DNA of 39,234 nt from Bacteroidota bacterium (GTDB lineage Bacteria; Bacteroidota; Ignavibacteria; UBA10030; UBA6906): positions 1 to 39,234 of the forward strand of contig JADLEA010000062.1 of assembly GCA_020846365.1 (NCBI GenBank), in the 5' to 3' direction. The notes below the pieces were generated by a model that had not been told where the DNA came from, did not search any database, and worked only from the letters and a program-made list of their open reading frames with translations. Every line of letters starts with the position of its first letter. Position 1 is the stretch's first letter. The translations under genes and the position numbers were made by a program. Of this stretch, positions 8,105 to 36,611 are shown one piece after another.

Positions 8105-8488
8105 CGGAAACTCCTCATTTTTCTTGGTCGATGAAACCACCGCTCGGCGCGCACAGTGTCGCCGTAGTCACTTCACGTCACGCTTCATGCCCAACCCCAC
8201 ATGCTGCTCACCTCTGCCGCTGCACGCCCGCTATTGTCACGCTGAAGTACGCTTGAGCCTTCTAATTTCGCAAACTCCCGAAACTGTGGGGTGATTGCCG
8301 TCACACGCCACCCGACCTCGTGTCAGCAAGCCTTCTACCCTGATCACAAAGATAGGCGATTTCAGCAACAGGCGCCAGGCCAGAACCCTCTCAGGCGGGG
8401 CCGTGGCATACGGACAATGCCGTCGTGTCGCGCCGCCCGGGGACGCACTGCCGCGACTGGCATCATCGATCGCCGGAGGGCTTGCAGG

Positions 8489-12019: not shown

Positions 12020-12074
12020 GCGTCGATTTCCTTGCGTTCCAAGGGAATGGTGATGCCGTCAATCCCCTGATGCA

Positions 12075-12614: not shown

Positions 12615-12625
12615 GGATCTGCTCC

Positions 12626-16596: not shown

Positions 16597-19500
16597 TTAT
16601 TTCATCAGGAGCATCTTGATGACGTAGCTGCCGCCAGCGGCCGTGGTCATGCGGGTAAGGTACATACCCGTCGCCACGGTGCGGCCCGCCTCATTTCTTC
16701 CATCCCATCTCAACCAGTGCCGTCCCTGCTCCAGCACACCGGTGTGCAGCGTCCGCACTTCCTCCCCCAGAATGCTGTAGATTTTCACGGTCACTTCTCC
16801 CGTCAACGGTATCGACACCGGAATAGTCGTCGCCGGGTTGAACGGGTTCGGGAAGTTTTGTTCGAGCGCAAAGGTCTGCGGCACAATGGAGCCAAGCTCG
16901 CCGGCAACCGCCTCATGCGTGCCGATTAACACGATGAAGGCCGAGCGATCGGTGACGGGAAGAGCTGCATAGGAGTTCTTCTCCCTTAAGTCGACATAGC
17001 GCGCGCGGGCGACATCCACCAGATAGGCGTCGAACTCTGTCGGAACCTCTCCGATGCCGGTGAATGTCAACAGCACCTCCTTCCCGCGGGGAGCACGGAG
17101 CTCGAAGGGCCAACGCGCAACCCTGTCGATCCGGCCGCGAAAATCGGTCGCAAAGTCCGATGCAACGGAATCCATGTCGGGCCGCGAGAAGACAGCGCTC
17201 GGCAGCACTCCGATCGCCCTCGGCTTGTGGTAGTCATGGATGTCGAGCCCGTCAGTGGCATCCGGCCGGATGCCCAGTCGAGTGGACACATCCGCATAGG
17301 ATTCCGTCGATACCTCGATCCCCACAGTCCAGGATCCGGCAGCTAGCGTGTCCGGTTGTTTGAGCACGCCGGATGTTGCGGCATAGGGAACCTTAAGCGT
17401 GGCAATACCGTCCACATTATAGAAGTAGTAGCCTCTGTATGGTTCCAGCGTGCCTGAGGTCTGAAAACCCTGGCTGCCGCTGAATCCGTGGATGGGCTCC
17501 CGCGTTGCCTGTCCGTTTACCGATTGTACTGCTGTCCAGGGAACCGCCTGGGCGAACGGATTGGTGATGATATTCCACCCCGTGTGCAAAGGAACGAGGG
17601 CAGTCCCCGCCGAATCCAGTGTCGCGGATGGCACCGACGTGTTGATGTTCCAGTCCCCCTTTCTGACAAGCCAGAATGCGCGTCCCGTGGAGAAGGTGAA
17701 CGTCTGGCCGCCGTCATAGGGCACGAAGTAGTTGGACTCGGCGCCGTTATCCCAGTAGGCCTGCCAGTCGGATGCGTTTGTGCCGTTCACGAGATTGCCG
17801 ACAAGCGCCGTGCCGCCTCCGGGCAGCCCGACCAATCGATAGTCGGTCGGAAGATAATCGCCGGAGTTCGTGTAGCTCGGGAATGTCTGGACCCAGTTCA
17901 GGACCCACACCGTGGGGTACGACGGCGTGAAGGTCCATGTCGAAGAGTACGCACTCGTGCCCCCGGCATTCCTCGCCCTCACGTGCCAGTAGTATGTCGT
18001 ATTGTTGACCAGCGGTCCAATCTGCCGCGAGGTGGTCGTCAAGGTGGAGTCATCGATCACCGTGGTGTTGAACGTTCCGACCACAGCCACCTGCAGATGA
18101 TAATGCGTTGCCCCCGCAGCAGAATCCCAGCGGGCCGTGAAGTTCGTCGGAAGGTTCGGCTGGCCGTTTGTCGGGACCAGGAGCGTGGGCGTAGGCGGCG
18201 GCGCCATGCTGACGGTGAATGCGACGGGTGCAGCATTTCCTCCGCCTGGCGCCGGATTGGACACGACGACGTTTCGCGCGCCGAGCGTGGCCAAGGCCCC
18301 AATGGTGACGTTCGCCGTGAGTCGCGTGGCGCTGTCACGCGTCACGGAATTCACAGTGATCCCTGAACCGAAATTCACCTCGGTGTCGGTCACGAAATTC
18401 GTGCCGCGCAGGTCGACGTTCAACGTCTGCGACCGTATCGCGGTCGATGGGGTGGCGGACAGAAGCGTCGGTACAGGATTCGTCACCAGGAAGCCGTCAA
18501 CCAGACTGTCCACTCCCCCGCCCGGCGGGTCGATCCTGACGTAAATCGTACGGGGACCGGTGGCTGCGTTGCGCGAGATCGTGATGTTTGTGGTCAGCCG
18601 GGTTGCGCTGTCAACAGTGACCGAATTGACGTTAATATCCGGCCCGAAATCCATCTTCGTCGCGCCGCCCGTGAAGTTCGCCCCACGCACCACGACGCTG
18701 AGCGTCTCGAGACGTCTTCCGGTCGCCGGGGTCGCGTTGGCAATCGATGGTTCGGCGTTGGTGCCCACAACGAAACCGTTCACAAGCGTCGCGGAGCCGC
18801 CACCGGGGGCGAAGTTGAACACGGAGATGTCCCGCGGGCCAACGGCCGCGTCGGAGTTGACGGTGATGTCTGCCGTAATCTGGGTGTCGCTGACGACGAC
18901 ACGGGAGTGGACGGTTATGCCCGTCCCCATGTCAATTCTCGTCACGCCTTCGATGAAGCCGGTCCCCTCGATCACGATGTTTCTGCGCTCAAGCTGCTGA
19001 ACGATATTGGGCGTCACCGATGTGAGCGTGGGTTCCGGGTTGATGACGGTGAAAGCGTTCGTTTTTGTTGCAGTGCCGCCTCCCGGCGAGCTGTTGGTCA
19101 CGGAGACGGACCGCAATCCCGTTGCCGCGCTGGTGTCGATGGTGATCGATACCACCAGCTGCGTCGGGATGGTAATGGTCGGCTGGCCCGTCACGATACC
19201 GGATCCGAAGTTCACGGAAGTGACGCCATCGATGAAGTTCGTACCGGTGATCGCCACATCCAGGTGGCCCAGACGGGCGCCCACGGACGGAGTGACCGTG
19301 GCGATGGTGGGCACGGGGTTTTCCGCCACCGTGAAGGTGCGTTTCTCCGACATCCCGCCGCCGGGTGTGGGATTGGACACCGTCACGTCGCGCGGTCCCA
19401 TGGTTGCGCCGGCTTGCACGGTAATGTTGGCGGTCAGCGTCGTGCCGGAATTCACCACCGTGCTGTTGACCACAATGTCAGAACCGCCAAAATCGACTTC

Positions 19501-22500
19501 GGTCACATTGGCAACGAAGTTTGTGCCCGTGAATACTACGTCCAGTGTTTGTAGACGGCTTCCCGAAGGAGGTTCTATGCTTGCCAGAGTCGGAATGGGG
19601 TTAGCGACGATAAACGTGCTCGTGTTGGATTCACCCCCGCCCGGGGCAGGATTAAACACCGACACGGAGTACGACCGGGCCGTGTCGAGCTCGGAGGCCG
19701 GAATTGCGGCCGTCACGCGCGTCCTGTCCACCAGCGTCGTGCTCAACTCCAGGGTGCCCAGCCGGACAACCGATCCCGGAACGAAGTTTGTTCCGTCGAC
19801 CTGCACTGACGCGCTGACAGCTTCCACCAGGGTGCTTTCGGGAGCCAGCGTTATGATCGTCGGGATCGGGTTGTTGACGGTGAAAGCGTTCGGGAGCGTG
19901 GCTGAGCCGCCTCCCGGCACGGGATTTGAGACCGTGACATCGCGCGGGCCAAGCGTGGCGGCGGAATCAATCGTGAGCCCGACGACCATCTCTCCCTGAT
20001 TCTGTACATTCACCGCGTAGACGGTTATGTTCGCCCCCAGCGACGCATTGGTCACTCCCTGGACAAAGTTCGATCCGGTGAGCGTAATCGTCAGAGAATC
20101 CAGCCGTGAGCCGTTCTGCAATGAGAGTCCCGTGAATGTCGGGAGCGGGTTCGTCACGATGAGCCCGTCGGTTAACGATGCCTTCCCTCCGCCGGGACCG
20201 GCATTCTCGACGCTGACGGTCCGGAGTCCTGTCGATGCCGTGTCGGTGACGGTCGCGGTGATCCGTATCTTTGTGCTGCTGTCAATGACGGTGCTCGTGA
20301 CCACGAACCCGGTGCCCAGATCCACGGAGGAAATGCCCGTGTAGAAATTCGTTCCGCGGAGAGTGAACTCGATCGTCTGCAGTCTCGTTGCCGTGTCGGG
20401 AGAGATGCTGGTGAGCGTGGGGACCGGGTTGTTCCCAACCGTGAATCCCACCCCGTTTGAAGTCCCGCCCTCCGCACCGCTGTTGGTCACGGTGAACTGC
20501 CGGACGCCGTCAGAGGCGGCCGGGCTGACCCTGATGTTCATCGCAATGGTCGTGGGGCTTGTCACGGTATACGAGTTGATGGTGATGTTCGATCCGAGGA
20601 CCCCGACCGAACTCACCCCGTCCGCGAAGTTGGTTCCGGTGATGATCACGTCGTACGTCTGTCCGCGGATACCGGCCGACGGGGCGATGCTGATGAGCGT
20701 GGGAATGTTCTTCACGCGGAACGCCGACGGCAGCGTGGCCGTTGCCCCGCCCGGCGAGGGATTCGTGACGCTGACATCCCGCGTGCCCAGCGTAGCTCCC
20801 GAACCGATGGTGATCCCCACGGTCATTTGCGTGGGGGATTGCACGATGATCGTATCAATGGTGATGTTCGCCCCGAAGTTCGCGGTCGTTACCTTCGGGA
20901 TGAAATTCGTACCGGTGAGCGCCACCTGCACCGACTGGAGCCGGCTGGCTTCTCCGGGGGAGATACCCGTGAGCGTCAACGGGGGGTTGTTTATGGTAAC
21001 GGATCCGGAAACCCCCGTTTTGGAGCCGGTGGCGGAGGTCGCTGTGAACGTTCCCGTTCCGGCGGATCCGGTATAGCGCATCCCCATGGTGGTCAGGTTC
21101 GCCAGACCGGCCGTGAAATCTGCGGCCTGATTGAGCACGTTGTTGTCCAGCGTACCCAAACCCGTGATCGCTCCCGGAGAGCCCGGAAGGCTTGTCGTGA
21201 TCGTGACGTTGTTTGTGGCTGCATTGAACGTGGGCACGATATTTCCCCAATCGTCCTGCGCCACGAGGGTGTTCGTCCCCGTGAAGTTGACGCCGTTCAC
21301 CTGCGGTGAGGCGAGCGTCCAGGAGAATTGCCCGAGCGCGCCGGGAGAAACGGTTACGGTCAGCCTGTCTGCACCGGTGGATATCACCGTTCCGTCCGTT
21401 ACGACTATCGTCGCCGTCTCAACCTTGTACAATTTCATCTGGCCGTTTTGCCCGGCACTCACCGTGGCGACACCGTTGGTAAAGGTGATCGGCGTGGGTG
21501 TGTTGAAATTGACGTCCGTTCCCGTCGCACTCGAGACAGTGGGCTGCGTGACCGGATTCGCCGATGGGTTGGGGCCGGTGAATGTCAGGTTCTTCGTTCC
21601 CGTGTATCCGGTGACGATGTTGTCAGATGCGTCTTTTGCGGTGATCGTCAGATTTTGCCCCGACCCCGCGATTTGTGTCGTTGAGCCTGTGATCACCAGG
21701 CGGGTCGCCGTGCCGGCCGTAATTTCCACAAGAGCCGAGGTTCCGGCTTTTCCGGCAGCGGTTGCCGTGAATGTCCCGCTTCCGGTTGCACCCGTATAGA
21801 TCATCCCGAGAGTGGTAAGGTTTGCCACCCCCGAACTGAAATCCGTGGCCCGATTCAGGATGTTGTTGCCGCCGGTCCCCAGACCAGTTATGGTTGAGGG
21901 AAGACCGAGGGAAGTGCTGAGCGTGACATTGCTTGTCGACGCATTGAATGTGGTGACGGTGTTTCCGTATGTATCACGGGCGGTCAGGGTGTTGGCACCG
22001 GTGAACGCCACGCCGCTCACTTGCGGCGAGGTAAGACTCCACGCGAACTTCTCCAGTGCGCCGGGGGAAACCGTCGCCGTCAACCGGTCAGAGCCCGCGG
22101 AACTGATTGAACCATCCGTCACAGCGATAGTCGCTGTCTGGGCGCGGTACAGGCGGAGGACGCCGTTCTGGCTTCCGCTCACCTGGGCAACGCCATTCGT
22201 GAAGGAGATGGCGGTCTGAACAGTAAACGCCGTAGCGACACCGCTGCTGTTCGTCACCGTCGGCGACGTCGGCGGATCGATCGAAGAGTCCGCCCCCGAG
22301 AACGTAAGTTGCTTCGTCCCGGTGTAGGAGGTCACCGTATTGCCTGACCCGTCCTTGGCTGTGATCAGGAGATTTCTGGTGCCGCCGGCGCTCAACGTCG
22401 TAACGGAATCGCCCGTCGAGGTTCGCAGCACGAGGCGCGTCGCCCCGCCGGTGACGATCTGAATCGTGCTGGAGGTGCCGTTCTTCGTCCCTCCGGTCGC

Positions 22501-25500
22501 TGTAAACGTGCCGTTGCCAACGGCGCCGGTATACCGCATGCCCAGTGTCGTGAGATTTGCAACGCCGGAGACAAAGTCGCTGCTTCTGTTCAAAACGTTG
22601 TTGCCGACGGTGCCGAGCCCCGAGACAGTTCCTCCGAGGCTGCTGGTGATGGTCACGGGTGTGGCTGATGCGTCAAAGGTAGTGCGCGGGTTCCCCCAAT
22701 CATCCTGCGCTGTGAGCGTATTGGTGCCCACAAACGTTGCTCCGTTTGTCTGCGGCGATGTCAACGCCCATGCGAACTTGCCGAGCGCACCCGCAGAAAC
22801 TGTGACAGTGAGACGGTCTCCACCGCTGGCGCTGATCGTCCCGTCCGTGACGGAGATGATCGCCGTCTGCGCCCTGTACAGGCGCATGACGCCGTTGTTG
22901 CTTCCCGACACCGTTGCCACACCGCTGGAGAAGTTGATGTTTGTCGTCGCCCCGAATGCCCTCGCCGAGCCGGAATTGTTGGTGACCGTCGGCGCCGTGG
23001 CGGGATTCAGCGAGGAATCCGCCCCGGAAAACGTCAGGGATTTGGTGCCGGTGTACGACGTGACAATATTTCCGGATCCGTCCCGCGCGGTGATTGTCAG
23101 GTCCTGTGATCCGCCTGCTGTCATTGTGGATGAGCCCGTGATGACAAGGCGCGTCGCGCCCCCCGCCACGATCTGCACGTTTCCGGAGGTACCGGCCTTG
23201 CTGCTCGTATTGACGGCAGTAAATGTTGTGGTCCCCACCGGACTGGTATATTTCAGCTTCCCGGTAAGATTCGCGACTCCGGACACAAAATCAGAATTCT
23301 GTTCCAGGACATTTTCCGCTCCGGGCGTGAGCCCGCCGACGGTCCCTCCGAGCGCGTTGGCGCTGATCGTCACCGGAGAAGCGGAGGCGTCGTAGTTCAG
23401 AACCGTGTTGCCGTAACTGTCCTGCGCGGTGATGGTGTTTGTGCCGGTGAATGCGACGCCGCTTTGCTGCGGAGTGTTGAGGTCAACTACGAATTTCGCG
23501 AGGGCATCGGCAGAAACGGTGACGATGAGCCGGTCGCCGGCACCGGAACCGATGCTCCCGTCCGAGACCGCGATGGTGTCGGTGGCCGCACGGTAGAGGC
23601 GCATGAGCCCATTCGAACCCCCGCTCACTGTCGCGCTGCCGCCCGTAAACGTGATGACGGTGCCCAGGCCGAAAGGCACCTGGCTGCCGCTCTTGTTGGT
23701 GACCGTCGGAGACGTCACGGGATTCGATGAGGGGCCGGAACCGGAAAACACCAGGGTCTTGTCCCCCCCGTACGTCGTGACCGTATTCCCGGAGCTGTCT
23801 TTTGCCGTGATGGTAAGCGCCTGACTTGCTCCCGCGATCTGCGAACTGCTCCCGCTGAGCAAAAGTCGTGTCGCACTCCCCACATTAATAACGACACTTC
23901 CGGAAGTGGAACCGCTCCTGCCGGACTGTGATGTCGCCGTGAACACGCTGCTTCCGGTCGTCCCCGTGTACTTCAGCTTTGTGCTCAGATTGGCAACGCC
24001 GCTGCTGAAGTCACCGGCCTGGTTCAGGACGTTTGTACCGCCTGATCCGAGACCTGACAGGGTACCCGCAAGGCCGGGGGCTGTCATCGTTACATTGTTT
24101 GCGGCGGCGTTGAAACCAGTGACCACGTTCCCAAAGCTGTCCACTGCAGTCACGGTATTGATCCCGCTGAACGCCACACCGTTGGTCTGCGGCGAAGTGA
24201 TGACAACGGCGAACCGCTCAAGCCCGGCCGGCGTTACGGTAACGTTCAGTTCGCTTCCCACCACCGAGCTGATATCGGCATCGCGCACGGCGATTGCGGC
24301 AACCTCCACCTTGCGCAGCCGCAGGACGCCATTATTGTTCCCGGTCGGACTGGCCACGCCGTTGACAAACGTGATATCGGTGTTTCTGGGCGTCCACGAG
24401 AAGTTTCGTTCCGCACCCGTATTGTCGGTCACTGTCGGGGGATCGCCATCGGGGGAGGAACTGGCCCCCATGAAACCAAGCGTCTTTACGCCCCCATATC
24501 CCGTCGCGGTATTGCCTGACGTATCCTTGGCGGTGATCGTCAGCGAGCTCCCGATTCCAGCGCCAACGGACGATGCTCCGCTGATGACAAACCTCCGTGC
24601 GACTCCGGGAGCGATAGTGACGTTGCCGGATGTCCCCGACTGTCCGGAAATCAGACAGGTTGCCTTGAACTGCCCGGTCCCTGCCAGACCGATATATTTC
24701 AGCTTGCTGGTGAGAACGGCCTTGCCCGAAGAGAAGTCGCCAACCTGATTCAGCACGCTGTCCCTCCCCGTGCCGAGTGTAATCAGCCCGGAGGATAGGG
24801 ATCCCAGGGGACTGATCTCGACCGGCCGGTCCGACGCGTTGAAGCTTGTAACGATGTTCCCATATGCATCCTGTGCAATGAGCGTGTCCGCGCCGGTGAA
24901 CGCCACATCGTTCGTCTGAGGAGATGTGAGTTTGAACTCAAACTGGCCGAGCGAATCAGGCGAGACTGCCACCGTGAGACGATCTGCGCCGGTCGCCGAG
25001 ATGGACCCGTCGGTCGCGGCAACGATTGCGGTCTCGACCTTGTACAGCTTCAATACTCCGTTGTTACCGCTGCTCACCGTTGCAACCCCGGCGGTGAAGG
25101 TGATGCTCGTCGCGCTGCCGAAATTGACATCTGCGCCCGCGCTGTTGGTCACGCTGGGGATATCCCCATCAGGCGAAGCGGATGCCCCGGAGAAGGTGAG
25201 CGACTTGGGTCCGGCGTAGCCGGCGACGGTGTTTCCGCTGCCGTCTTTCGCCGTAATCGTCAGGTTTTGTGACTTCCCTGCAGTCTGTGTCCCCTGGCCC
25301 GTGATGACAAGCCGTGTGGCTGCTCCCGAGGATATGGTGATGGAGGCGGAGGTACCAGTTGCGACCGGGCCGGCTGAGGTGGCCGTGAATGTGCCTGAGC
25401 CGGTAGCCCCGGTGTACGTCATGCCCAGGGTCGTCAGGTTTGCCACGCCGCTGCTGAAGTCCCCATTTTTGTTCAGGACGTTTCCGGCGCCATCAAGCCC

Positions 25501-26115
25501 CGACACGGTCCCGCTCAGAGTCGTCGAGATGGTGACGTTGTTTGACTGGGCGCTAAACGTCGTGACTGTGTTTCCCCAGCTATCCTGCGCGGTGAGCGTG
25601 TTCGTGCCCGTGAATGCAACGCCGCTGATTTGGGGCGACGTGAGCGCGAAGGCGAACTTGTTGACGGTACCGGCGCTGACGGTGACGCTGAGCCGGTCGG
25701 TTCCTGTCGACGAGAGCGTGTCAGCCGGTGCTTCCACCGACACAACAGCCGTTTCCGCTTTGTAGAGCCGGAGCACGCCGTTCTTACCGGCTGCAACCGT
25801 TGCGACCCCGTCGGTGAAGAGAATGGTGGTGGGGCTGCCGAACGGAACTGCAATCCCGCCGGTGTCCGCAACCGTCGGCGCGGTGACCGGGTTGGTGGAC
25901 GAGGAGGCCCCGCTGAACGTCAGTGTCTTCGGTCCGGTGTATGATGCAGCCGGTTGGCCGGAGCTGTCAGCCCTGATCGTGAGGTTCTGTGATGCACCTG
26001 CCGTCTGCGTCCCGGACCCCGTGATCACGAATTTCGTCGCCTGCGCAAACGAGGCTGTAACCCCGACGATCATCATCAGGGCAAGCAATCTTGCAGCGCG
26101 TTGGTGCGTTCTCAT
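16597..26115 (-). CDS. Giant T9SS-secreted multi-repeat adhesin-like protein
   Basis: Open reading frame of ~3170 aa with signal peptide MRTHQRAARLLALMMIVGVTASFAQA, 7 tandem ~240-aa supermodules, ~10 IPT/TIG-like repeats, FN3-like domain and T9SS type A-like C-terminus (FALEQNFPNPFNPATTIPVSIP...VATGMYLTRMTTAAGGSYVIKMLLMK). Confidence 0.9.
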   Translation of the reverse strand: MRTHQRAARLLALMMIVGVTASFAQATKFVITGSGTQTAGASQNLTIRADSSGQPAASYTGPKTLTFSGASSSTNPVTAPTVADTGGIAVPFGSPTTILFTDGVATVAAGKNGVLRLYKAETAVVSVEAPADTLSSTGTDRLSVTVSAGTVNKFAFALTSPQISGVAFTGTNTLTAQDSWGNTVTTFSAQSNNVTISTTLSGTVSGLDGAGNVLNKNGDFSSGVANLTTLGMTYTGATGSGTFTATSAGPVATGTSASITISSGAATRLVITGQGTQTAGKSQNLTITAKDGSGNTVAGYAGPKSLTFSGASASPDGDIPSVTNSAGADVNFGSATSITFTAGVATVSSGNNGVLKLYKVETAIVAATDGSISATGADRLTVAVSPDSLGQFEFKLTSPQTNDVAFTGADTLIAQDAYGNIVTSFNASDRPVEISPLGSLSSGLITLGTGRDSVLNQVGDFSSGKAVLTSKLKYIGLAGTGQFKATCLISGQSGTSGNVTIAPGVARRFVISGASSVGAGIGSSLTITAKDTSGNTATGYGGVKTLGFMGASSSPDGDPPTVTDNTGAERNFSWTPRNTDITFVNGVASPTGNNNGVLRLRKVEVAAIAVRDADISSVVGSELNVTVTPAGLERFAVVITSPQTNGVAFSGINTVTAVDSFGNVVTGFNAAANNVTMTAPGLAGTLSGLGSGGTNVLNQAGDFSSGVANLSTKLKYTGTTGSSVFTATSQSGRSGSTSGSVVINVGSATRLLLSGSSSQIAGASQALTITAKDSSGNTVTTYGGDKTLVFSGSGPSSNPVTSPTVTNKSGSQVPFGLGTVITFTGGSATVSGGSNGLMRLYRAATDTIAVSDGSIGSGAGDRLIVTVSADALAKFVVDLNTPQQSGVAFTGTNTITAQDSYGNTVLNYDASASPVTISANALGGTVGGLTPGAENVLEQNSDFVSGVANLTGKLKYTSPVGTTTFTAVNTSSKAGTSGNVQIVAGGATRLVITGSSTMTAGGSQDLTITARDGSGNIVTSYTGTKSLTFSGADSSLNPATAPTVTNNSGSARAFGATTNINFSSGVATVSGSNNGVMRLYRAQTAIISVTDGTISASGGDRLTVTVSAGALGKFAWALTSPQTNGATFVGTNTLTAQDDWGNPRTTFDASATPVTITSSLGGTVSGLGTVGNNVLNRSSDFVSGVANLTTLGMRYTGAVGNGTFTATGGTKNGTSSTIQIVTGGATRLVLRTSTGDSVTTLSAGGTRNLLITAKDGSGNTVTSYTGTKQLTFSGADSSIDPPTSPTVTNSSGVATAFTVQTAISFTNGVAQVSGSQNGVLRLYRAQTATIAVTDGSISSAGSDRLTATVSPGALEKFAWSLTSPQVSGVAFTGANTLTARDTYGNTVTTFNASTSNVTLSTSLGLPSTITGLGTGGNNILNRATDFSSGVANLTTLGMIYTGATGSGTFTATAAGKAGTSALVEITAGTATRLVITGSTTQIAGSGQNLTITAKDASDNIVTGYTGTKNLTFTGPNPSANPVTQPTVSSATGTDVNFNTPTPITFTNGVATVSAGQNGQMKLYKVETATIVVTDGTVISTGADRLTVTVSPGALGQFSWTLASPQVNGVNFTGTNTLVAQDDWGNIVPTFNAATNNVTITTSLPGSPGAITGLGTLDNNVLNQAADFTAGLANLTTMGMRYTGSAGTGTFTATSATGSKTGVSGSVTINNPPLTLTGISPGEASRLQSVQVALTGTNFIPKVTTANFGANITIDTIIVQSPTQMTVGITIGSGATLGTRDVSVTNPSPGGATATLPSAFRVKNIPTLISIAPSAGIRGQTYDVIITGTNFADGVSSVGVLGSNITINSYTVTSPTTIAMNIRVSPAASDGVRQFTVTNSGAEGGTSNGVGFTVGNNPVPTLTSISPDTATRLQTIEFTLRGTNFYTGISSVDLGTGFVVTSTVIDSSTKIRITATVTDTASTGLRTVSVENAGPGGGKASLTDGLIVTNPLPTFTGLSLQNGSRLDSLTITLTGSNFVQGVTNASLGANITVYAVNVQNQGEMVVGLTIDSAATLGPRDVTVSNPVPGGGSATLPNAFTVNNPIPTIITLAPESTLVEAVSASVQVDGTNFVPGSVVRLGTLELSTTLVDRTRVTAAIPASELDTARSYSVSVFNPAPGGGESNTSTFIVANPIPTLASIEPPSGSRLQTLDVVFTGTNFVANVTEVDFGGSDIVVNSTVVNSGTTLTANITVQAGATMGPRDVTVSNPTPGGGMSEKRTFTVAENPVPTIATVTPSVGARLGHLDVAITGTNFIDGVTSVNFGSGIVTGQPTITIPTQLVVSITIDTSAATGLRSVSVTNSSPGGGTATKTNAFTVINPEPTLTSVTPNIVQQLERRNIVIEGTGFIEGVTRIDMGTGITVHSRVVVSDTQITADITVNSDAAVGPRDISVFNFAPGGGSATLVNGFVVGTNAEPSIANATPATGRRLETLSVVVRGANFTGGATKMDFGPDINVNSVTVDSATRLTTNITISRNAATGPRTIYVRIDPPGGGVDSLVDGFLVTNPVPTLLSATPSTAIRSQTLNVDLRGTNFVTDTEVNFGSGITVNSVTRDSATRLTANVTIGALATLGARNVVVSNPAPGGGNAAPVAFTVSMAPPPTPTLLVPTNGQPNLPTNFTARWDSAAGATHYHLQVAVVGTFNTTVIDDSTLTTTSRQIGPLVNNTTYYWHVRARNAGGTSAYSSTWTFTPSYPTVWVLNWVQTFPSYTNSGDYLPTDYRLVGLPGGGTALVGNLVNGTNASDWQAYWDNGAESNYFVPYDGGQTFTFSTGRAFWLVRKGDWNINTSVPSATLDSAGTALVPLHTGWNIITNPFAQAVPWTAVQSVNGQATREPIHGFSGSQGFQTSGTLEPYRGYYFYNVDGIATLKVPYAATSGVLKQPDTLAAGSWTVGIEVSTESYADVSTRLGIRPDATDGLDIHDYHKPRAIGVLPSAVFSRPDMDSVASDFATDFRGRIDRVARWPFELRAPRGKEVLLTFTGIGEVPTEFDAYLVDVARARYVDLREKNSYAALPVTDRSAFIVLIGTHEAVAGELGSIVPQTFALEQNFPNPFNPATTIPVSIPLTGEVTVKIYSILGEEVRTLHTGVLEQGRHWLRWDGRNEAGRTVATGMYLTRMTTAAGGSYVIKMLLMK
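16600..16875 (-). other. T9SS (Por) C-terminal sorting domain
   Basis: QNFPNPFNPATTIPVSIPLTGEVTVKIYSILGEEVRTL...GRHWLRWDGRNEAGRTVATGMYLTRM. Confidence 0.9.
18203..20991 (-). repeat. About 10 tandem IPT/TIG-like repeats in the giant protein
   Basis: Recurrent NPxPTLxSxxPxxxxRLQTLxVxxTGTNFxxGVTxVxFG ... GPRDVTVSNPxPGGG pattern, about 90 aa period. Confidence 0.85.
20991..26037 (-). repeat. Seven tandem ~720-bp (~240-aa) supermodules in the giant protein
   Basis: Module starts marked by ATRLVITG-type sequence at about 26037, 25322, 24603, 23876, 23157, 22446, 21712; each carries QNLTITAKDxSGNTVTSYTGTKxLTFSG, NGVLRLYKVETATI, DRLTVTVSAGALGKFAWALTSPQ, NTLTAQDSYGNTVTTF, NVLNQAGDFSSGVANLTTLGMRYTGATGSGTFTAT. 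Confidence 0.93.
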
Positions 26116-26332
26116 ATCGGACTCTCTGATGAAACAAGACACCCTTCTTCAGTGCAGCTGAGTGGAACCCGTTGTATCATGCCTCTGATGAAACGCAGGA
26201 AAGTAAGGGAAAAATCTTCGTTTGGGAGTATGCCCGCGGCATGGGTCCCCCGTCGAAAAGATATGTTCTCCACTCCCGCCGGCGGCCTGGGCGCCAGGGG
26301 GAAAAACGAGGATAGAGGAAGAAATGCATGAT

Positions 26333-26556: not shown

Positions 26557-27456
26557 CTAATGCAGAAAAAGGATCGCCACGCCGGCCACCGCCACACAAG
26601 CCCCTCCGACGGCTCTCCAGGAGAGCCGTTCCTTATACAGAACACGAACAAGAGGAAGCATGATGATGGGAACAGTCGCCATCAGCGTTGACGCGATGCC
26701 GACCGCCGTGTGAGCGACCGCCAGAAGGCTGAGGGAGATCCCGAGAAACGGACCCAGCACCGACCCGGCCGCGGTGAGCCAGAACGCCGGAAGGTCGCTG
26801 CGAAACGTCCGAACCGGATGCACAAACCTGCCAAGCACAACCATCACGGGGAGCAACACCAGGAGCGAGATGCCGATTCTCACCGTCGCGGCGACAAACC
26901 CGTTGATCGGCCCTTCGTTAAAGGCAAGCTTGGCAAAAATGAGCCCGACTCCTTGCCCCACAGCGGCGAGCGCGGCAAAGAGGATGCCCGCAACAAGTTC
27001 CTTCCCGTGAATGATGCTTCCTGGGGCCCGCTCGTATACCACGAGAAGCACTCCCAACACGGTCACGATGATCCCGACGACGCCGAGCACAGGAAGGCGT
27101 TCATGGAGGAAGACAAAGGCGAGGATGGCCGCAATGGCGGGTGCAATGGACATCACAAGCATACTGACGCGCGGACCGATATGGGCGTAGGAGCGGAAGA
27201 GGAACGAATCCCCTATCGCCAGCCCAACGATGCCGCTGATGCCCAGGTATGCGTACTGCGGGAGGGAGAGATCGAACGATGCGCCGGTGAGGAGCAGGAG
27301 GACGGCAAGATAGAAGAGCGCCAGAACGAGACGCGAAACATTCACCAGAACGGAGCCCACCCGCAGCGTCGCCGTGGAGAATATCAATGAACTGCCAGAC
27401 CAGCACACTGCAGTGAGCAATGCCGCCATCTCCCCGAAATACGGAATGTCACTCAC
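26557..27456 (-). CDS. EamA/DMT-superfamily transporter
   Basis: 299 aa; two EamA-like halves, multiple TM helices, AILAFVFLHERLPVLGVVGIIVTVLGVLLVV, LPLVRVLYKERLSWRAVGGACVAVAGVAILFL. Confidence 0.93.
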   Translation of the reverse strand: MSDIPYFGEMAALLTAVCWSGSSLIFSTATLRVGSVLVNVSRLVLALFYLAVLLLLTGASFDLSLPQYAYLGISGIVGLAIGDSFLFRSYAHIGPRVSMLVMSIAPAIAAILAFVFLHERLPVLGVVGIIVTVLGVLLVVYERAPGSIIHGKELVAGILFAALAAVGQGVGLIFAKLAFNEGPINGFVAATVRIGISLLVLLPVMVVLGRFVHPVRTFRSDLPAFWLTAAGSVLGPFLGISLSLLAVAHTAVGIASTLMATVPIIMLPLVRVLYKERLSWRAVGGACVAVAGVAILFLH

Positions 27457-27474
27457 TGCGGTCTTCCTCTCAGG

Positions 27475-28197
27475 CTACATCACCTTCCACCCGAGTCGTT
27501 CCAGGTATACGAACACGCGTTCTTTGAACAGTGCCGCATAGGTCGGATCCTGCCGGCCATGGTGCTCCGGAAGAAAGAGACACACCAACCGTTTTACCAT
27601 TCCCGAGTTTTTCAGCTTCTTGTGCATCATGTGACGCATCCGCTTTTCCGGGACCACGATGAGGTCGGCCCACCGGAGCCGTTCGTCATCGTCCGAGAGA
27701 TCCTCCAACCACGCCGTGCGTATGTCCAGCCGGTCCGGTGACCCCAGCAGTTCTTCCACAGCCCCGTCCGCAGCCCCGGCCTTGTGCTGGACGAAAAGCA
27801 GACGCACCTTCTCCGTTGGCGAGGGTTGCCGCTGCGCGTCACTGATGACGGGAGTGCACCGGGAGATCTCATCACCCGTTGCTTCGATCAGGACGGGGTT
27901 CGGGTCGCCGAAACGGACATTGATGAACACCTTTGCCCACGCAAGCACCTCTTCCCGGTTGAAGTCGTCCTTCCTGACCAGCATGTCCAGCGTATCAGAG
28001 ATGACGTATTCGCTCCCGCCCAACCGTTCCAGTTTCTCTTCACGTGTGCCGCCGGTGAAGGAGAGGAGGCCTTCCAGCGTAATCCAGTACGACTGCCCGC
28101 CGCTGCTTCCGTCTTCGGGAAGCAGGTAGAGATCTTCGAGCGCGGTCCGTTCGTCCCGCTGTGCTCCGGTAACGGGCAACCAGTATTTCCATCGCAT
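27475..28197 (-). CDS. Hypothetical protein with C-terminal degenerate LMW phosphotyrosine-phosphatase-like domain
   Basis: Start MRWKYWLPVTG; C-terminal VRLLFVQHKAGAADGAVEELL...LRWADLIVVPEKRMRHMMHKKLKNSGMVKRLVCLFLPEHHGRQDPTYAALFKERV resembles small LMW-PTP proteins but lacks CX5R. Confidence 0.65.
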   Translation of the reverse strand: MRWKYWLPVTGAQRDERTALEDLYLLPEDGSSGGQSYWITLEGLLSFTGGTREEKLERLGGSEYVISDTLDMLVRKDDFNREEVLAWAKVFINVRFGDPNPVLIEATGDEISRCTPVISDAQRQPSPTEKVRLLFVQHKAGAADGAVEELLGSPDRLDIRTAWLEDLSDDDERLRWADLIVVPEKRMRHMMHKKLKNSGMVKRLVCLFLPEHHGRQDPTYAALFKERVFVYLERLGWKVM

Positions 28198-28339
28198 GGC
28201 ACACCTGCGAGCCGTGATACCCGGCCGGGCACACTGCCGCCCGGGGCGCAAGAATATACGCGCGCACCGGACGAAAAGCAAGAACACAGCGGGTGAAGTG
28301 AAACGTCGTTGAGGCAAAGAGGAACAACAACGCGCATTA

Positions 28340-29368
28340 CTAGAGCCGGAAGTAGGCCTGCAGGGCATCCGCGAGTTTCTCTCCGCCGAACCGGAAGGCA
28401 TCGATCGCGGGAAGTCCGGTCTCCCGCTCGATTTTCAGCATCGCCTGCGTGCTCTCTTCCGCCGAGAGCCCTACGGAGTTGATGCCGATGCCCACCACCT
28501 TGGCCGGCTTGAAGAAGCGGATTGCGTCTTCGTGGAATTGGATCAGTGACAGGAGCGGCGGTATGGTGAATCCGTAGTCGTCTTTCTCGCGGGTGGGCTG
28601 ATGCACCATGATCATGGCATCCGGCATCGTGCCGTGCATGAGTCCCATCGTCACGCTTGAATAACCCTGGTGCGTCAATGCCCCCTGGCCTTCGACGAAG
28701 ATGTACTCGGCCCCCGCGTCGGCGGCCGCGTCGATCTCCTTCTCGATGCTCCCCGCGATGTAGTCGCCGATCATGGCATCGACGGAGATCCCGCTTCCGC
28801 AGATCAGAATCCCGGTCTGCCCCGTCGCAATGAACCGGCTTTTGGCGCCGCGCTGGCGAAACACCTTCTCTACTTCGAGGATCGTTGTCATTTTCCCGAT
28901 CCGGCAGTCGGTGCCGACACCGAGAATCGTTTTCGCCTTCCGGTTCTTCCACGTGCCGCGCGCCACTACCTGGTGCGAGGCCAGGGGTTTCCGGAGATCG
29001 GTGAGGACCACATGATGCTCCTCGGCAAGCCGGGCCAGCTCCGCATCTTCGCTGAGCCGCTGATGGAGGCCGCTGATGATGTGCAGTCCGCGGAGCACCG
29101 CCTTGCGGAGTGTTTCGCGCCAGCTCTCGGGCAGGTAACCACCGGGCGGCGCAATCCCGATCAGGAGCGTGTTCGGTGCGTACTGCATCCCCTCTTCCAG
29201 AGAGGCAACGACAGGTATGGAACCGCCGTAGCCCAGGATATCCTGTGCCGTCGCGCCCGCCCGCGAACTGTCAATCACCGCAACAACCTCTTCCGGCCGG
29301 TACGCAATGGCACCGGAGGCGGTCTTTGCGGTCATGGGGCCGAACCGACGTTCGGCCAGGATGATCAT
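28340..29368 (-). CDS. DUF1611 family protein (DgcN-like P-loop/Rossmann protein)
   Basis: RMIILAERRFGPMTAKTASGAIAYRPEEVVAVIDSSRAG, ILGVGTDCRIGKMTTILEVEKVF, FVEGQGALTHQGYSSVTMGLMHGTMPDAMIMVHQP. The longer start at 29425 cannot be excluded. Confidence 0.88.
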   Translation of the reverse strand: MIILAERRFGPMTAKTASGAIAYRPEEVVAVIDSSRAGATAQDILGYGGSIPVVASLEEGMQYAPNTLLIGIAPPGGYLPESWRETLRKAVLRGLHIISGLHQRLSEDAELARLAEEHHVVLTDLRKPLASHQVVARGTWKNRKAKTILGVGTDCRIGKMTTILEVEKVFRQRGAKSRFIATGQTGILICGSGISVDAMIGDYIAGSIEKEIDAAADAGAEYIFVEGQGALTHQGYSSVTMGLMHGTMPDAMIMVHQPTREKDDYGFTIPPLLSLIQFHEDAIRFFKPAKVVGIGINSVGLSAEESTQAMLKIERETGLPAIDAFRFGGEKLADALQAYFRL

Positions 29369-29393
29369 GCGTCTTGGGGCCGGAATGGCAGGA

Positions 29394-29936
29394 CTATCTC
29401 CCTGCAAAAGTCCACCCTTTCTCAAATGCGCTCAGATTCAGGGCTTCCGTCCCCTTGGGCACGGACACTTCGACCGCTTTGCGGAGCGCTTCCTTGCTGG
29501 TGACTCCCGCAACGGCCCCGTAGAATCCCATCATCACGATGTTTAACACCATCCTTTTGCCCAACTCCTCCGCGATTCTCGTCGCGGGAATGGAAAGATG
29601 CCGGATTCCCGGCCGAAGGTTGCGCACCGTGACAAGATCTTCTTCGGTAATCAACAACCCGCCTTCGGCGAGTTCCGGGGAGAAGCGGGAGAATGCTTCC
29701 TGGGACATCAGGACCATCTGCGTCGGGCTGGTGATGTACGGATAGGCGATAGGGTCCTCGGCCACGATCACCTGCGCACTGCATGCGCTCCCGCGCGCCT
29801 CAGGTCCGAATGCCTGGATCATGGTCGCGAACTTGTTGTCATAAATGGATGCTGCGCGGCCTATGATGTAACCGCTCAGGATGACTCCCTGGCCGCCAAA
29901 CCCCCCGATCTTGATTTCCGTGCGGGCCATGGTCAC
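29394..29936 (-). CDS. korC: 2-oxoacid:ferredoxin oxidoreductase, gamma subunit
   Basis: 180 aa; EIKIGGFGGQGVILSGYIIGRAA, IQAFGPEARGSACSAQVIVAEDPIAYPYI. Confidence 0.9.
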   Translation of the reverse strand: MTMARTEIKIGGFGGQGVILSGYIIGRAASIYDNKFATMIQAFGPEARGSACSAQVIVAEDPIAYPYITSPTQMVLMSQEAFSRFSPELAEGGLLITEEDLVTVRNLRPGIRHLSIPATRIAEELGKRMVLNIVMMGFYGAVAGVTSKEALRKAVEVSVPKGTEALNLSAFEKGWTFAGR

Positions 29937-30817
29937 GCTCCTCCCGCTGTGGCAGGGAGATAGTCCGCACCGAGCCGTTCACGCAAATACCGATCCATGG
30001 CTTCCCCGAAGGTTGGCCGCACACGGTCCACGAATTTCCCGACGATGATCTTCCCCTGAAATTCCAGAGCGACATCTTTGGTGTCAGCTCCGTGCCGGAT
30101 CTCGCTGTTCTCCCGGTAGTACACCATCTGTGCGAGCCCGTCCCCGAGTTTGTTCCTTCTGCTGTAGAGCGTGGGACAGGGGGCAAGAATCTCGACAAAC
30201 GAGAATCCCTTCTTCAACAGCGCTTCTTTGATCGCCTTGGTGGTATGACGGACGTGAAACGCGGTCCAGCGCGCCACATACACCGCGCCGCACGATTCCG
30301 CAAGCGCAGGGAGGTTGAAGGCGGACTCGAAATTGCCGTAGGGCGTAGTGGATGCCACCGCGGTCATCGGCGTCGTGGGTGCCACCTGACCGCCGGTCAT
30401 GCCGTACGTGGAGTTGTTGATGAGAATGACGGTCACATCCATGTTGCGGCGCGCCGCATGGATGAAATGGTTCCCGCCGATGGCGCTGAGATCCCCGTCG
30501 CCGCTGTACACCACAACCTTCAACTCCGGGTTGGCGAGCTTGAGTCCGGTCGCGAACGGAATGGCACGGCCGTGCGTCGTGTGGAAGGAATCCAGGTTCA
30601 GATACCCGGCAACGCGTCCGGTGCACCCGATTCCGGATACGATCGCGGTCTTGCGCAAATCCAGGCCGCTCGACTCCAGCGCCTGGGCAAAGCAGTTCAC
30701 CGTGGTCCCGATGCCGCAGCCGGGACACCAGATGTGCGGCATCCGATCCATGCGCAGGAGCGACTCGACCGGGTTCACCGGCAGGTTCTCGTCGAGCTCA
30801 TACAGTTCTTCGGCCAT
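29933..30817 (-). CDS. korB: 2-oxoacid:ferredoxin oxidoreductase, beta (TPP-binding) subunit
   Basis: 294 aa; PHIWCPGCGIGTTVNCFAQAL, SGIGCTGRVAGYLNLDSFHTTHGRAIPFATGLKLANPELKVVVYSGDGDLSAIGGNHFIHAARRNMDVTVILINNSTYGMTGGQ. Confidence 0.94.
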   Translation of the reverse strand: MAEELYELDENLPVNPVESLLRMDRMPHIWCPGCGIGTTVNCFAQALESSGLDLRKTAIVSGIGCTGRVAGYLNLDSFHTTHGRAIPFATGLKLANPELKVVVYSGDGDLSAIGGNHFIHAARRNMDVTVILINNSTYGMTGGQVAPTTPMTAVASTTPYGNFESAFNLPALAESCGAVYVARWTAFHVRHTTKAIKEALLKKGFSFVEILAPCPTLYSRRNKLGDGLAQMVYYRENSEIRHGADTKDVALEFQGKIIVGKFVDRVRPTFGEAMDRYLRERLGADYLPATAGGA

Positions 30818-30820
30818 GAG

Positions 30821-31990
30821 TCAGCGCCCTTTCCTGCTGTTCACAATTCCCTGATAGATGTCCTCCGGCACGTGCACCGTGCCGCCGGTGTGACCCACCA
30901 GCGTGGCCGGTACTTTTCCCGCGGAGCATCGTTCGACCTCCAGCACCACCTGACCCATGTTCATCTCGGGGACGACGAAGGCAGAAATGCGAGACGCGAG
31001 TTCGCGTATCCGGTGCTCCGGAAATGGCCAGACAACGACAAGGCGCAGGTGACCCACTTTCAGCCCTTCCTTCCGGGCCCTTTCGATGGCGGGAAGTGCG
31101 GTGCGTGACGTGATACCGTACGTCACGACCACGATGTCTGCACCTTCCACCTGGTCTTCAACATAGTCTGCGATGGTGGCGGAGTGTTTCGTGATCTTGT
31201 CGTGCAGCCGCTGGACCAGTTTTTCCTGCGCCGGAACCGACATGTTGGGATAGCCCCGCTCGTCATGAGTCAACCCGGTCACATGGATGTGGAACCCGTC
31301 TCCGGCTTTGACCATCTGAGGGACCATGTCAGGGCCGGCGCGGAACGGTTCGTAGTTCTCCGGCGAGCCGAGGAACCACCTGCGCGGAACCAGACTGATC
31401 TCCTCCGCCGGAGGAATGAGCACCCGTTCCGTCATGTGGCCGACACATTCGTCCATCATCAGGAAGACCGGTACACGGTATTGTTCCGACAGGTTGAACG
31501 CCTTGATGGTCAGGTCAAAGCACTCCTGCGGCGAATTCGGGCAGACTGCGATCGCCTGGTAGTCGCCGTGCGATCCCCATCGTGCCTGCATCATGTCTCC
31601 TTGCGCCGGCTGCGTCGGCAATCCGGTCGAAGGACCGGCTCTCTGAACGTTGACGAAGACACACGGAGTCTCGGTCATCGCCGCAAACCCGACGTGTTCC
31701 ATCATCAGCGAGAAGCCCGGGCCGGAGGTCACCGTCATGGCCTTTTTCCCCGCCCACACCGCCCCCTGAATGGCGATCGACGAGGCGATCTCGTCTTCCA
31801 TCTGGATGAACACGCCGCCAACGCGCGGGAATCGTTCCGCAATGCGCTCCACCACCTCCGTCGATGGCGTGATGGGATATCCCGCGACGAACCTGCATCC
31901 CGCAGCGATCGCGCCTTCGCAACACGCATGGTCGCCGTCAATGAAATGGGCGCCTGTGAGCACACCTGCCGGATCAGCGTTCACGGTCAC
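30821..31990 (-). CDS. korA: 2-oxoacid:ferredoxin oxidoreductase, alpha subunit
   Basis: 389 aa; GDHACCEGAIAAGCRFVAGYPITPSTEVVERIAERFP, QMEDEIASSIAIQGAVWAGKKAMTVTSGPGFSLMMEHVGFA, GPSTGLPTQPAQGDMMQARWGSHGD. Confidence 0.94.
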   Translation of the reverse strand: MTVNADPAGVLTGAHFIDGDHACCEGAIAAGCRFVAGYPITPSTEVVERIAERFPRVGGVFIQMEDEIASSIAIQGAVWAGKKAMTVTSGPGFSLMMEHVGFAAMTETPCVFVNVQRAGPSTGLPTQPAQGDMMQARWGSHGDYQAIAVCPNSPQECFDLTIKAFNLSEQYRVPVFLMMDECVGHMTERVLIPPAEEISLVPRRWFLGSPENYEPFRAGPDMVPQMVKAGDGFHIHVTGLTHDERGYPNMSVPAQEKLVQRLHDKITKHSATIADYVEDQVEGADIVVVTYGITSRTALPAIERARKEGLKVGHLRLVVVWPFPEHRIRELASRISAFVVPEMNMGQVVLEVERCSAGKVPATLVGHTGGTVHVPEDIYQGIVNSRKGR

Positions 31991-32243
31991 TCCCCTTCCC
32001 GCTCTTCTTGTTCTGCAGAAAACCGTAAATCGCGAAGTCCGGGCAGAGCATCCCGCACATGTTGCATCCGTTGCACATCTCCCTCGAGATAAGGGCAGGG
32101 GGATGGTACCCCTTCACGTTGTACTGGTCCGACAACTTGAGTGCGTGCGGCGGACAGAACTCCACGCAGAAGCCGCATCCTTTGCATCGCTCGACCGTGA
32201 TCACCACCGAACCGGCCGCTTTCTTCTTTTTTTCTTCAGCCAT
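31974..32243 (-). CDS. korD: 2x[4Fe-4S] ferredoxin-type delta subunit
   Basis: 89 aa; VERCKGCGFCVEFCPPHAL and EMCNGCNMCGMLCPDFAIYG. Confidence 0.93.
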   Translation of the reverse strand: MAEEKKKKAAGSVVITVERCKGCGFCVEFCPPHALKLSDQYNVKGYHPPALISREMCNGCNMCGMLCPDFAIYGFLQNKKSGKGSDRER

Positions 32244-32295: not shown

Positions 32296-33315
32296 CTATT
32301 CCTGCGGCGGCACATAGGGAAACAAATCCCTCTTCAGCTCGTACGTCCGCAACGCCTGGGCGGTCGGGTGGGAGACGGAGTCGACCAACGCGCCAATCGA
32401 AGCGATTTCCTCCGGAGAGATCTCGGCGCGGGAGACCACCTCCACCGAGACATCCGTGCCTTCGGCGCGGCGGGGTCTTCCGGGAGGGAAGAGCGCGTTG
32501 CTCATCCGGGAGTTCGGGTCCACGATTTCCACGCCGGCGGCTCCCCGTTTCCGCATCGCCTTCTCGAATTCCCGCGCCGCATATCCATAGTGTGTGCAGC
32601 AGAGTCCGACAAGCACCGGATCCGAGGTTCTTTCGATCTTCCCCATTGCCTCGCCGGCAAATTCAGCGATGGCCGAAACCACCTTTTCGCCGCGTGCATC
32701 CGACTCAATCTTCCCGGCCAGGTTCGGGCACGCCTGCGTGACGATGCGGACAGAATCCACTCCTCGTTCCAGAAGCAGCCGCCGGTGCGTGCCGGCGCCG
32801 ATGGTGGTCTCCGTGCCGAAAATGACCGCCGTCGAGCGAGGATCAGCAGAGAGCTTTTCGAACAACATGTCAACGCCCGTTTCCACGATCCCAAGCACCG
32901 GAATCGCCGAGGTCGTCACAAAACTCGTCTGCGGAATGAGCACGGAGAGCGTATTGCAGGCCACCAGGATGACGTCGGGCGCATACCAGCGCTCCATGCC
33001 CCCGAGCGCATCGTCAAAGACACGGACCTTCTCGGCCGTGCTCTTCATTCTATTATATCCCCGGTTGGATTCCGGAAGGGCATTGGCAAAGATGATCTGC
33101 AACCGGCGATAGATGCCCGATTGCCTGGCCCGTAGTTCGATATCCGCACACACGGCAAGCCCGCCCAGACCCGAGTCGGTCACCAGCACCTTGAGGGTGT
33201 CTCTTTCGGCGAGCTGGCCGATCCGGGCCAGGGGAGAACCCTGGGCGCGGGATTCTTTTGGGGAAGCAATCATCATGGTTCCGACCACGGCAGTCATAAG
33301 AAGGAGATGCTTCAT
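32296..33315 (-). CDS. Aspartate/glutamate racemase-like protein with N-terminal signal peptide
   Basis: 339 aa; signal MKHLLLMTAVVGTMMIASPKESRAQ; LVTDSGLGGLAV, LVACNTLSVL, PVLGIVETG, GLCCTHYGY match the DSGxGG / CNT / CTHY motifs of the MurI superfamily. Confidence 0.85.
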   Translation of the reverse strand: MKHLLLMTAVVGTMMIASPKESRAQGSPLARIGQLAERDTLKVLVTDSGLGGLAVCADIELRARQSGIYRRLQIIFANALPESNRGYNRMKSTAEKVRVFDDALGGMERWYAPDVILVACNTLSVLIPQTSFVTTSAIPVLGIVETGVDMLFEKLSADPRSTAVIFGTETTIGAGTHRRLLLERGVDSVRIVTQACPNLAGKIESDARGEKVVSAIAEFAGEAMGKIERTSDPVLVGLCCTHYGYAAREFEKAMRKRGAAGVEIVDPNSRMSNALFPPGRPRRAEGTDVSVEVVSRAEISPEEIASIGALVDSVSHPTAQALRTYELKRDLFPYVPPQE

Positions 33316-33354: not shown

Positions 33355-34608
33355 TTACCGTGGCGCAGAAGAGGTCCCACCCGGATTCTCATCCGGCCAG
33401 AGTCGATACCCGGCATAGTACTCTCTGACGATCTTCTGCACCTGACTGTACAATGTCGAAACTTCCCGGGCGCGGACCTCGCCCCCCCTGTCCAGCACGA
33501 GCGCCCGGGCCGCTTGAAGGACTTTCTGGTGCGCGGCATGCACGCGCTGCACCGTCCCGGTTCCCTGCTGGTTCAGGATCTTTGAAAGATCCAGATAGTT
33601 CCTTCCCTCCGGTGTCTTCAGCGGAAAGCACCGGCCTTTGAGCTTGAGCGCGTGCTCATTCAATGCCGCCGGGACCGGGCCCGAGGCGAGCATCATTGCG
33701 GGGATTTGATCGGCATATTTCACCCAGACCGGGATCACAGGGGTTGTGAGCGGAGACCCGAGCACCGTCCAGACGGTGGTCGCGGAAGGATCTTCACCCT
33801 TCCTGACTCCCTGGACGATCATGGATGTCGCCGTCGAATATCGCGGGACGAAGTCTGTGAAATTCACCATCGTACGGGAGTCCTCATCAAACGGGAGTTC
33901 TCCCTTCGTCAGGTCTGTCCCCACGAGACCATGCCGCAGGTTGGTGGTGCCTTCCAGCAGAATGAAATCCACCGAGATGCCCTCTCCGAGGAAAGCCCAC
34001 TGGAAGAGATTCTGCGTGGATTGGTACCGGATGTATCCCTGCCCGTTTTCCGGCGTCCCTGACATCGAGAAGTTGGTCCGGATGATGTATCCCTGCGGGG
34101 CGACAGCCGGATCATTGGCATCATACTTCACGAATGCATAGGGATCGGTCTCATAATAGGCAGCTCCGCCCTGGGCATCCACGACGCCGAAATTTGTCTC
34201 CACCCCCCTTTTGCCTTTGGTGTCCAGCAGTAGACGCTCAAAGTCTTCGAGCGTCCGGCATGTGCCGAGCGCCTGCCGCATGAGGATGCCTTCCTCATCC
34301 ATCTTCCCTCTATACTTCTCATACTGGAGATTGTAGGAAGCCGTGTTGATGATGCTGAACCCGGCCTCATTGCTTCCCATGAAACACTCCTGGTTTGCGG
34401 AATCAGCCAGATCGTGTACGCCCACGAAGGCATACGTGCCTCCCTTGGAGTACACCATCTTGTTCTGGAGATTGCCGGTATCCCGTTGTTTCCAGAGAAG
34501 CGGCCGGCCGTCTCTGGTTGCCCGGCCTGAGACAACCGCGGAGGTACAGGCATCTACGATCTGGGCTGCACAGAGCCCTGCGACTACCAGAAGCAGTATT
34601 CGTTTCAT
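33355..34608 (-). CDS. Secreted Ntn hydrolase, C45/AAT (acyl-CoA:6-APA acyltransferase)-like
   Basis: 417 aa; MKRILLLVVAGLCAAQIVDA^CTSAVVSGRATRDGRPLLWKQRDT; GSNEAGFSIINTASY; VVDAQGGAAYYETDPY. Confidence 0.78.
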   Translation of the reverse strand: MKRILLLVVAGLCAAQIVDACTSAVVSGRATRDGRPLLWKQRDTGNLQNKMVYSKGGTYAFVGVHDLADSANQECFMGSNEAGFSIINTASYNLQYEKYRGKMDEEGILMRQALGTCRTLEDFERLLLDTKGKRGVETNFGVVDAQGGAAYYETDPYAFVKYDANDPAVAPQGYIIRTNFSMSGTPENGQGYIRYQSTQNLFQWAFLGEGISVDFILLEGTTNLRHGLVGTDLTKGELPFDEDSRTMVNFTDFVPRYSTATSMIVQGVRKGEDPSATTVWTVLGSPLTTPVIPVWVKYADQIPAMMLASGPVPAALNEHALKLKGRCFPLKTPEGRNYLDLSKILNQQGTGTVQRVHAAHQKVLQAARALVLDRGGEVRAREVSTLYSQVQKIVREYYAGYRLWPDENPGGTSSAPR

Positions 34609-34625: not shown

Positions 34626-36503
<1,878 letters not shown>

Positions 36504-36611
36504 GAACACAACCTGGGTAATCAAGGAAAAGGACGGGAGTACGTAAATGTACCGTTATATCCCCGGACAAGCAACGCCCAGGCAGGCGGCACAGCGATGG
36601 AAGTCATATCG

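Follow-up and report, generated by a model that had tools for sequence, protein, structure and literature searches.

Glutamate racemase is regarded as a cytoplasmic cell-wall enzyme, and a MurI-like protein that begins with an export signal raises the question of what such a protein would do outside the cytoplasm. This question is posed by a protein, here designated Rac, encoded in the 39,234 nt contig JADLEA010000062.1 of a Bacteroidota bacterium (class Ignavibacteria, assembly GCA_020846365.1), which was analyzed in full length as the window; this contig (C63) belongs to an assembly of 4.3 Mb that is 93% complete. We found that Rac belongs to a distinct family, separate from MurI and spread over many phyla, the exported members of which are frequently encoded together with poly-gamma-glutamate (PGA) genes. 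As the favoured explanation, to which we give about an even chance, a periplasmic or extracellular racemase would turn D-Glu (or D-Asp) released by hydrolases into the L form for catabolism.

Rac carries an export signal and is additional to the cytoplasmic MurI

Signal peptides were judged by hydropathy, the n/h/c layout and an AxA-like or Cys cleavage site, and the N-terminus of Rac (MKHLLLMTAVVGTMMIASPKESRA followed by QG) has the layout typical of a signal peptide. A wrong start codon cannot account for it, because the Rac open frame offers no start codon other than the ATG at 33315, and was thus ruled out as its source; a chance hydrophobic N-terminus was ruled out as well, since export signals recur in the relatives while their sequence diverges. 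By the hydropathy rule, 52 of the 81 clade members are exported, several having a lipobox-type Cys, and 29 are not, and at least seven changes between the two states are required on the clade tree. These 29 members without a recognizable signal, among them that of locus L085, which has the same neighbours as Rac (a C45 Ntn-hydrolase and 2-oxoacid:ferredoxin oxidoreductase [Kor] subunits), would fit Rac being a cytoplasmic auxiliary glutamate racemase whose N-terminus is no working signal peptide. Nevertheless, the single start codon, the signals kept in 52 members despite divergence, some of lipobox type, and the export of the C45 partner as well make this very improbable.

A PF01177 search over the genome identified a canonical MurI of 280 aa (MKTAGKKEDQPIGVFDSGIGG...) without a signal peptide (G000:C263:6439-7281), and a second PF01177-superfamily protein on contig C519. 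Rac is therefore additional to the cell-wall MurI, and its being the housekeeping MurI was ruled out. In the tree, the Rac clade is split with full SH-aLRT support from the MurI proteins encoded in the genomes of its members. There is good support for an exported MurI-like protein that is not the housekeeping one. The initial annotation had described a signal peptide on a MurI-like protein and suggested looking for a second, cytoplasmic murI; the export observation is confirmed and proved more general than one gene, and the cytoplasmic murI was found.

Rac is a remote MurI relative with intact catalytic residues

Rac scores 52.2 bits (E=5e-14) against the MurI equivalog model TIGR00067, below its cut-off of 146.65, and 29.1 bits (E=1e-6) against PF01177, just under the gathering cut-off of 31 bits, and is therefore a remote MurI relative and no formal member. 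Its kinship with the Asp/Glu/hydantoin racemase superfamily is nevertheless clear from the fold and a PDB profile search. The closest PDB sequence match is glutamate racemase 1b73 of A. pyrophilus (E=1e-12), with D47, S48, C120, N121 and T122 of Rac aligning with D7, S8, C70, N71 and T72, and C240, H242 and E204 with C178, H180 and E147. The first five of these residues, C240 and H242 do not vary across 55 aligned clade members, all of which have E or Q at position 204. The motifs annotated initially as intact are indeed all present, namely DSGLGG (residues 47-52), CNT (120-122) and CTHY (240-243). In the AlphaFold2 model built on the clade alignment (pLDDT 93, pTM 0.89), low confidence is confined to the N-terminus, and glutamate racemases occupy the top 47 places among the Foldseek PDB matches (probability 1.00, TMt 0.65-0.80), with aspartate and allantoin racemases ranking next.

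In MurI, which uses no cofactor, a pair of cysteines on opposite faces of the alpha-carbon removes and returns a proton; since Rac conserves this pair together with the assisting Asp and His, the same 1,1-proton transfer is predicted for Rac. Rac would be a racemase acting on Glu or Asp in a net D-to-L direction. Compared with MurI/RacE (TIGR00067; PDB 1b73, 1zuw, 2jfx), Rac shares the fold, the catalytic cysteines, DSGxGG and the assisting Asp/Glu/His positions, but differs in being exported, in forming a separate sub-cut-off clade that is extra to the cell-wall MurI, in its gene context, and in a longer C-terminus (339 aa versus about 255-290 for the PDB chains). Moreover, the PYG substrate loop of MurI is replaced by a GYN segment, with Tyr87 invariant and Asn88 near-invariant (54/55) across the aligned members. 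The periplasmic broad-spectrum racemases BsrV and Pseudomonas putida Alr have an alanine-racemase fold and depend on pyridoxal phosphate; Rac, for which racemization outside the cytoplasm is likewise predicted, is unrelated in fold and a cofactor-independent two-cysteine protein.

Given the sub-cut-off scores and the replaced loop, the substrate or reaction of Rac may differ from that of MurI. Rac could catalyze some other reaction of the superfamily, on another amino acid or as a cis-trans isomerization, with the product of the neighbouring hydrolases as substrate, and the score far under the MurI cut-off, the distinct branch and the changed loop point in this direction. We consider this distinctly unlikely, as the two cysteines, the assisting Asp and the assisting His show no variation among the aligned members, the fold matches glutamate racemases far better than other superfamily members, and the partners are predicted to act on Glu/Asp amides.

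The Rac clade is widespread and linked to PGA loci

Relatives of Rac occur in the same order and class. The family was recovered through an alignment-based contig search, a single-protein query having given no matches; 80 named loci were obtained, almost all from metagenome-assembled genomes, the record titles of which include Ignavibacteriales, Bacteroidales, Calditrichota, KSB1, Zixiibacteriota, Acidobacteriota, Holophagaceae, Aminicenantes, Lentisphaerae, Desulfobacterales and Lysobacterales. Among open-access papers, no description of an exported or periplasmic glutamate racemase or of the Rac family was found, nor was the family described in those on PgsW/TIGR04332 and on PGA plus racemase, and a racemase review leaves periplasm and signal peptides unmentioned (PMC8142540). 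The family is thus apparently undescribed so far, although absence from the open-access literature is no proof of novelty.

The neighbours of the 81 clade loci were clustered to find recurrent partners. Exported members recurrently have as neighbours PgsB, PgsC, the TIGR04332 "poly-gamma-glutamate system protein" and gamma-glutamyltransferase (GGT), and further FGase-like and AstE/AspA-like hydrolases, DUF6305 and a DctM-like permease. In locus L152, the genes run in one direction in the order Rac-B400-B611-B425-DctM-AstE-like-DUF6305-GGT-PgsB-PgsC-PgsW-C45-FGase, so that this PGA locus includes the type of C45 Ntn-hydrolase that neighbours Rac in the window; similar gene sets occur in L150/L151 (a single-contig genome) and L153. 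Curated cut-offs were passed by PgsB of L152, PgsC of L153, the TIGR04332 proteins and the GGTs of L152 and L153, while PgsB of L151 and L153 score below. In a 391-genome sample of the class, Rac and PgsC co-occur in 16 genomes versus 3.4 expected (Fisher p=3e-9), and at genus level in 14 versus 3.7 expected (p=1.5e-7), both statistics being inflated by the relatedness of the genomes; in 7 of the 16 genomes the two genes lie on one contig, 9-32 kb apart. In other lineages, the link is repeated in L081, L083 and L119 (Lysobacterales/Xanthomonadales), in L090, and in L101, L121 and L123 (Bacteroidetes/Bacteroidales). No Pgs, GGT, C45 or PGA_cap genes lie in the available stretch of 33 of the 52 exported members, in part owing to the shortness of several loci; the PGA link is therefore frequent, not universal.

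The exported members resemble components of the pgs/cap loci of Bacillus and others in sitting with PgsB, PgsC, the TIGR04332 protein and GGT. Bacillus-type PGA synthesis is described as drawing its D-Glu from an ordinary glutamate racemase or a D-amino-acid aminotransferase, not from an exported enzyme, and glutamate racemase is listed as a candidate D-Glu supplier in PGA producers including Fusobacterium nucleatum (PMC3815933). The placement of exported members inside loci with synthesis genes would also fit a tailoring role, in which the clade determines the D/L composition of Glu outside the cell or acts on the free N-terminal gamma-Glu of surface polyglutamate, the changed GYN loop possibly reflecting a blocked or different side-chain carboxylate; the window copy would then be a relic or act on the polymer of other bacteria. 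Taken as a whole, this appears rather unlikely, given that the window genome and the congener G001 keep C45-Rac without PgsC/PgsW and with catabolic genes adjoining, and that the shared neighbours are mostly hydrolases. In the 93% complete window assembly, PgsC and TIGR04332 gave no match and PgsB only a distant Mur-ligase match; congener G001 is likewise without PgsC and TIGR04332. Since the Pgs genes were not found while the pair is kept, C45-Rac in the window lineage more likely consumes external gamma-glutamyl or D-acidic material than serves self-made PGA.

Several gene sets around the clade deserve separate mention. A DctM-like permease, an exported AstE/AspA-like hydrolase, DUF6305 and GGT lie beside PgsB-PgsC-TIGR04332 in L152 and L153 and also in L063, L069, L078, L114 and L124; this set is a candidate for a polyglutamate locus of Gram-negative bacteria, and several of its parts have no assigned function. 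A divergent histidine kinase and response regulator pair adjoins the exported racemase operon in L063, L065, L067, L105 and L122, and the response regulator of L022 appears to depend on sigma-54. In Desulfobacterota and Lentisphaerae, members without a signal instead adjoin a PGA_cap protein and an ATP-grasp ligase; we regard this PGA_cap (CapA) link as weak, as these PGA_cap proteins also match the MslH epimerase model. In the signal-less set (L089, L093, L094, L102, L103, L110, L117, L126-L129, L131, L132, L135 and L136), the Rac relative, the PGA_cap protein and a D-Ala-D-Ala-ligase-like ATP-grasp protein are conserved, joined in part by FGase, alanine racemase and class IV aminotransferase; this putative D-amino-acid gene set also occurs in the cultured Desulfosarcina alkanivorans (L103).

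The window operon encodes an exported hydrolase and probable catabolic enzymes

On the minus strand of the window, the genes follow the order AspA, C45, Rac, KorD-like, KorA, KorB, KorC and DUF1611/DgcN-like, with 17 bp between AspA and C45 and 39 bp between C45 and Rac (Table 1). The C45 protein scores 23.6 bits against PF03417, above the cut-off of 23.2, and 40.9 bits against the NCBIfam C45 model, under the cut-off of 85. Its signal peptide ends just before Cys21, which is invariant in 5 relatives and would be freed at the mature N-terminus by cleavage, as expected of a C45 Ntn-hydrolase nucleophile. Its model is of moderate quality (pLDDT 71) and the fold resembles C69 dipeptidase and penicillin V acylase, a likeness from fold comparison only, as the C45 alignment gave no matches when searched against PDB profiles. 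The DUF1611 protein scores 262 bits against the DgcN model NF041892, below the cut-off of 480.

The C45-Rac pair is also found in L019, L025 and L026, with AspA upstream in L019 and KorD-A-B-C downstream in L025/L085, and congener G001 keeps AspA-C45-Rac. The operon genes probably degrade acidic amino acids, and their gene content suggests one common pathway as well as the C45 substrate. The full-length AspA-cNMP fusion (34626-36524) is kept at 85% identity in L019, and unusual aspartase regulation is possible.

Table 1. Positions of Rac, its motifs and the operon genes in the window
Feature	Position	Strand	Length	Evidence
Exported MurI-like racemase (Rac)	32296..33315	-	339 aa	
Rac signal peptide, residues 1-24, MKHLLLMTAVVGTMMIASPKESRA	33244..33315	-		Sequence; recurrent in clade; unstructured in model
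Rac DSGLGG motif, residues 47-52	33160..33177	-		D, S and three Gly invariant in 55/55
Rac GYN segment, residues 86-88, replacing the MurI PYG loop	33052..33060	-		Y87 55/55, N88 54/55
Rac first cysteine motif CNT, residues 120-122	32950..32958	-		Invariant 55/55
Rac second cysteine motif CTH, residues 240-242	32590..32598	-		C and H invariant 55/55
Aspartate ammonia-lyase (AspA), N-terminal cNMP-binding domain	34626..36524	-		TIGR00839 724 bits, cut-off 681; PF00027
Exported C45/PF03417 Ntn-hydrolase, nucleophile Cys21 directly after signal peptide	33355..34608	-		
Ferredoxin-like 4Fe-4S subunit (KorD-like)	31974..32243	-	89 aa	Cysteine motifs
KorA, 2-oxoacid:acceptor oxidoreductase alpha subunit	30821..31990	-		NF006412 570 bits, cut-off 411
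KorB, 2-oxoacid:ferredoxin oxidoreductase beta subunit	29933..30817	-		
KorC, 2-oxoacid:ferredoxin oxidoreductase gamma subunit	29394..29936	-		
DUF1611 protein, DgcN-like	28340..29425	-		PF07755 209 bits

Elsewhere on the minus strand, 26557-28401 holds a gene that matched no family (27475-28401) and, after it, a DMT-like permease, a pair that in L019 stands directly after Rac with no Kor or DUF1611 between. A 3181-aa open frame with an N-terminal signal-like sequence (16597-26142) possibly encodes a giant surface protein, and a one-strand gene run (339-14980), with aminotransferase-like, glycosyltransferase-like and chain-length-regulator-like genes, looks by eye like surface-polysaccharide synthesis.

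Discussion

We propose that Rac, as a member of a distinct MurI-like clade, would act in the periplasm or outside the cell as a two-cysteine racemase that needs no cofactor. It would work in concert with exported amidohydrolases that, outside the cytoplasm, would free acidic amino acids from gamma-glutamyl polymers or similar amides. The releasing enzyme would be the C45 Ntn-hydrolase in the window operon, freeing D/L-Glu or Asp from an amide, and GGT, FGase-like and AstE-like enzymes in the PGA loci of the relatives. Rac would then bring the freed D-Glu, and possibly D-Asp, into equilibrium with the respective L form. After uptake, the L form would pass through aspartase and 2-oxoacid:ferredoxin oxidoreductase, and any remaining D isomer might be handled inside the cell by the DgcN-like protein. 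The gene dgcN is described as key to the racemization of D-acidic amino acids (PMC12363236). The DgcN-DgcA D-glutamate pathway likewise converts D-acidic amino acids to L forms, and a DgcN-like gene ends the window operon; however, that route is intracellular, the window protein scores under the DgcN cut-off, and no DgcA was recognized among the neighbours scanned.

Several observations weigh against this proposal. Aspartase suits Asp better than Glu; Rac falls below the curated MurI and PF01177 cut-offs with its PYG loop replaced; the DgcN-like protein is below its own cut-off; the L085 relative lacks a recognizable signal peptide despite the same C45 and Kor neighbours; no transporter for the racemase product was identified; and the window genome, being without PgsB/C/W, has no PGA substrate of its own.

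The initial annotation had suggested that an exported form serves D-amino-acid scavenging or remodelling. Scavenging best fits the window operon, with its aspartase, 2-oxoacid:ferredoxin oxidoreductase, DgcN-like DUF1611 protein and exported amidohydrolase; cell-wall remodelling found no specific support, no peptidoglycan enzyme being recognized among the scanned neighbours. To that annotation the present analysis adds the separate sub-cut-off clade, the co-encoded exported Ntn-hydrolase and, mainly, the tie to PGA loci.

More broadly, and only tentatively, a widespread, so far overlooked family of extracellular cofactor-independent glutamate racemases may be standard in Gram-negative PGA systems, with some lineages, that of the window among them, having kept the racemase-hydrolase pair as a stand-alone D-acidic scavenging module. 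The clade suggests that many uncultured Gram-negative lineages have polyglutamate systems, and it offers testable roles for DUF6305, the TIGR04332 protein and the C45, FGase-like and AstE-like hydrolases that are exported. If the proposal is true, an exported, PGA-tied clade would mean that D/L-glutamate interconversion also takes place outside the cytoplasm, and surveys of glutamate racemase genes that count all of them as cell-wall MurI may mix two enzymes.
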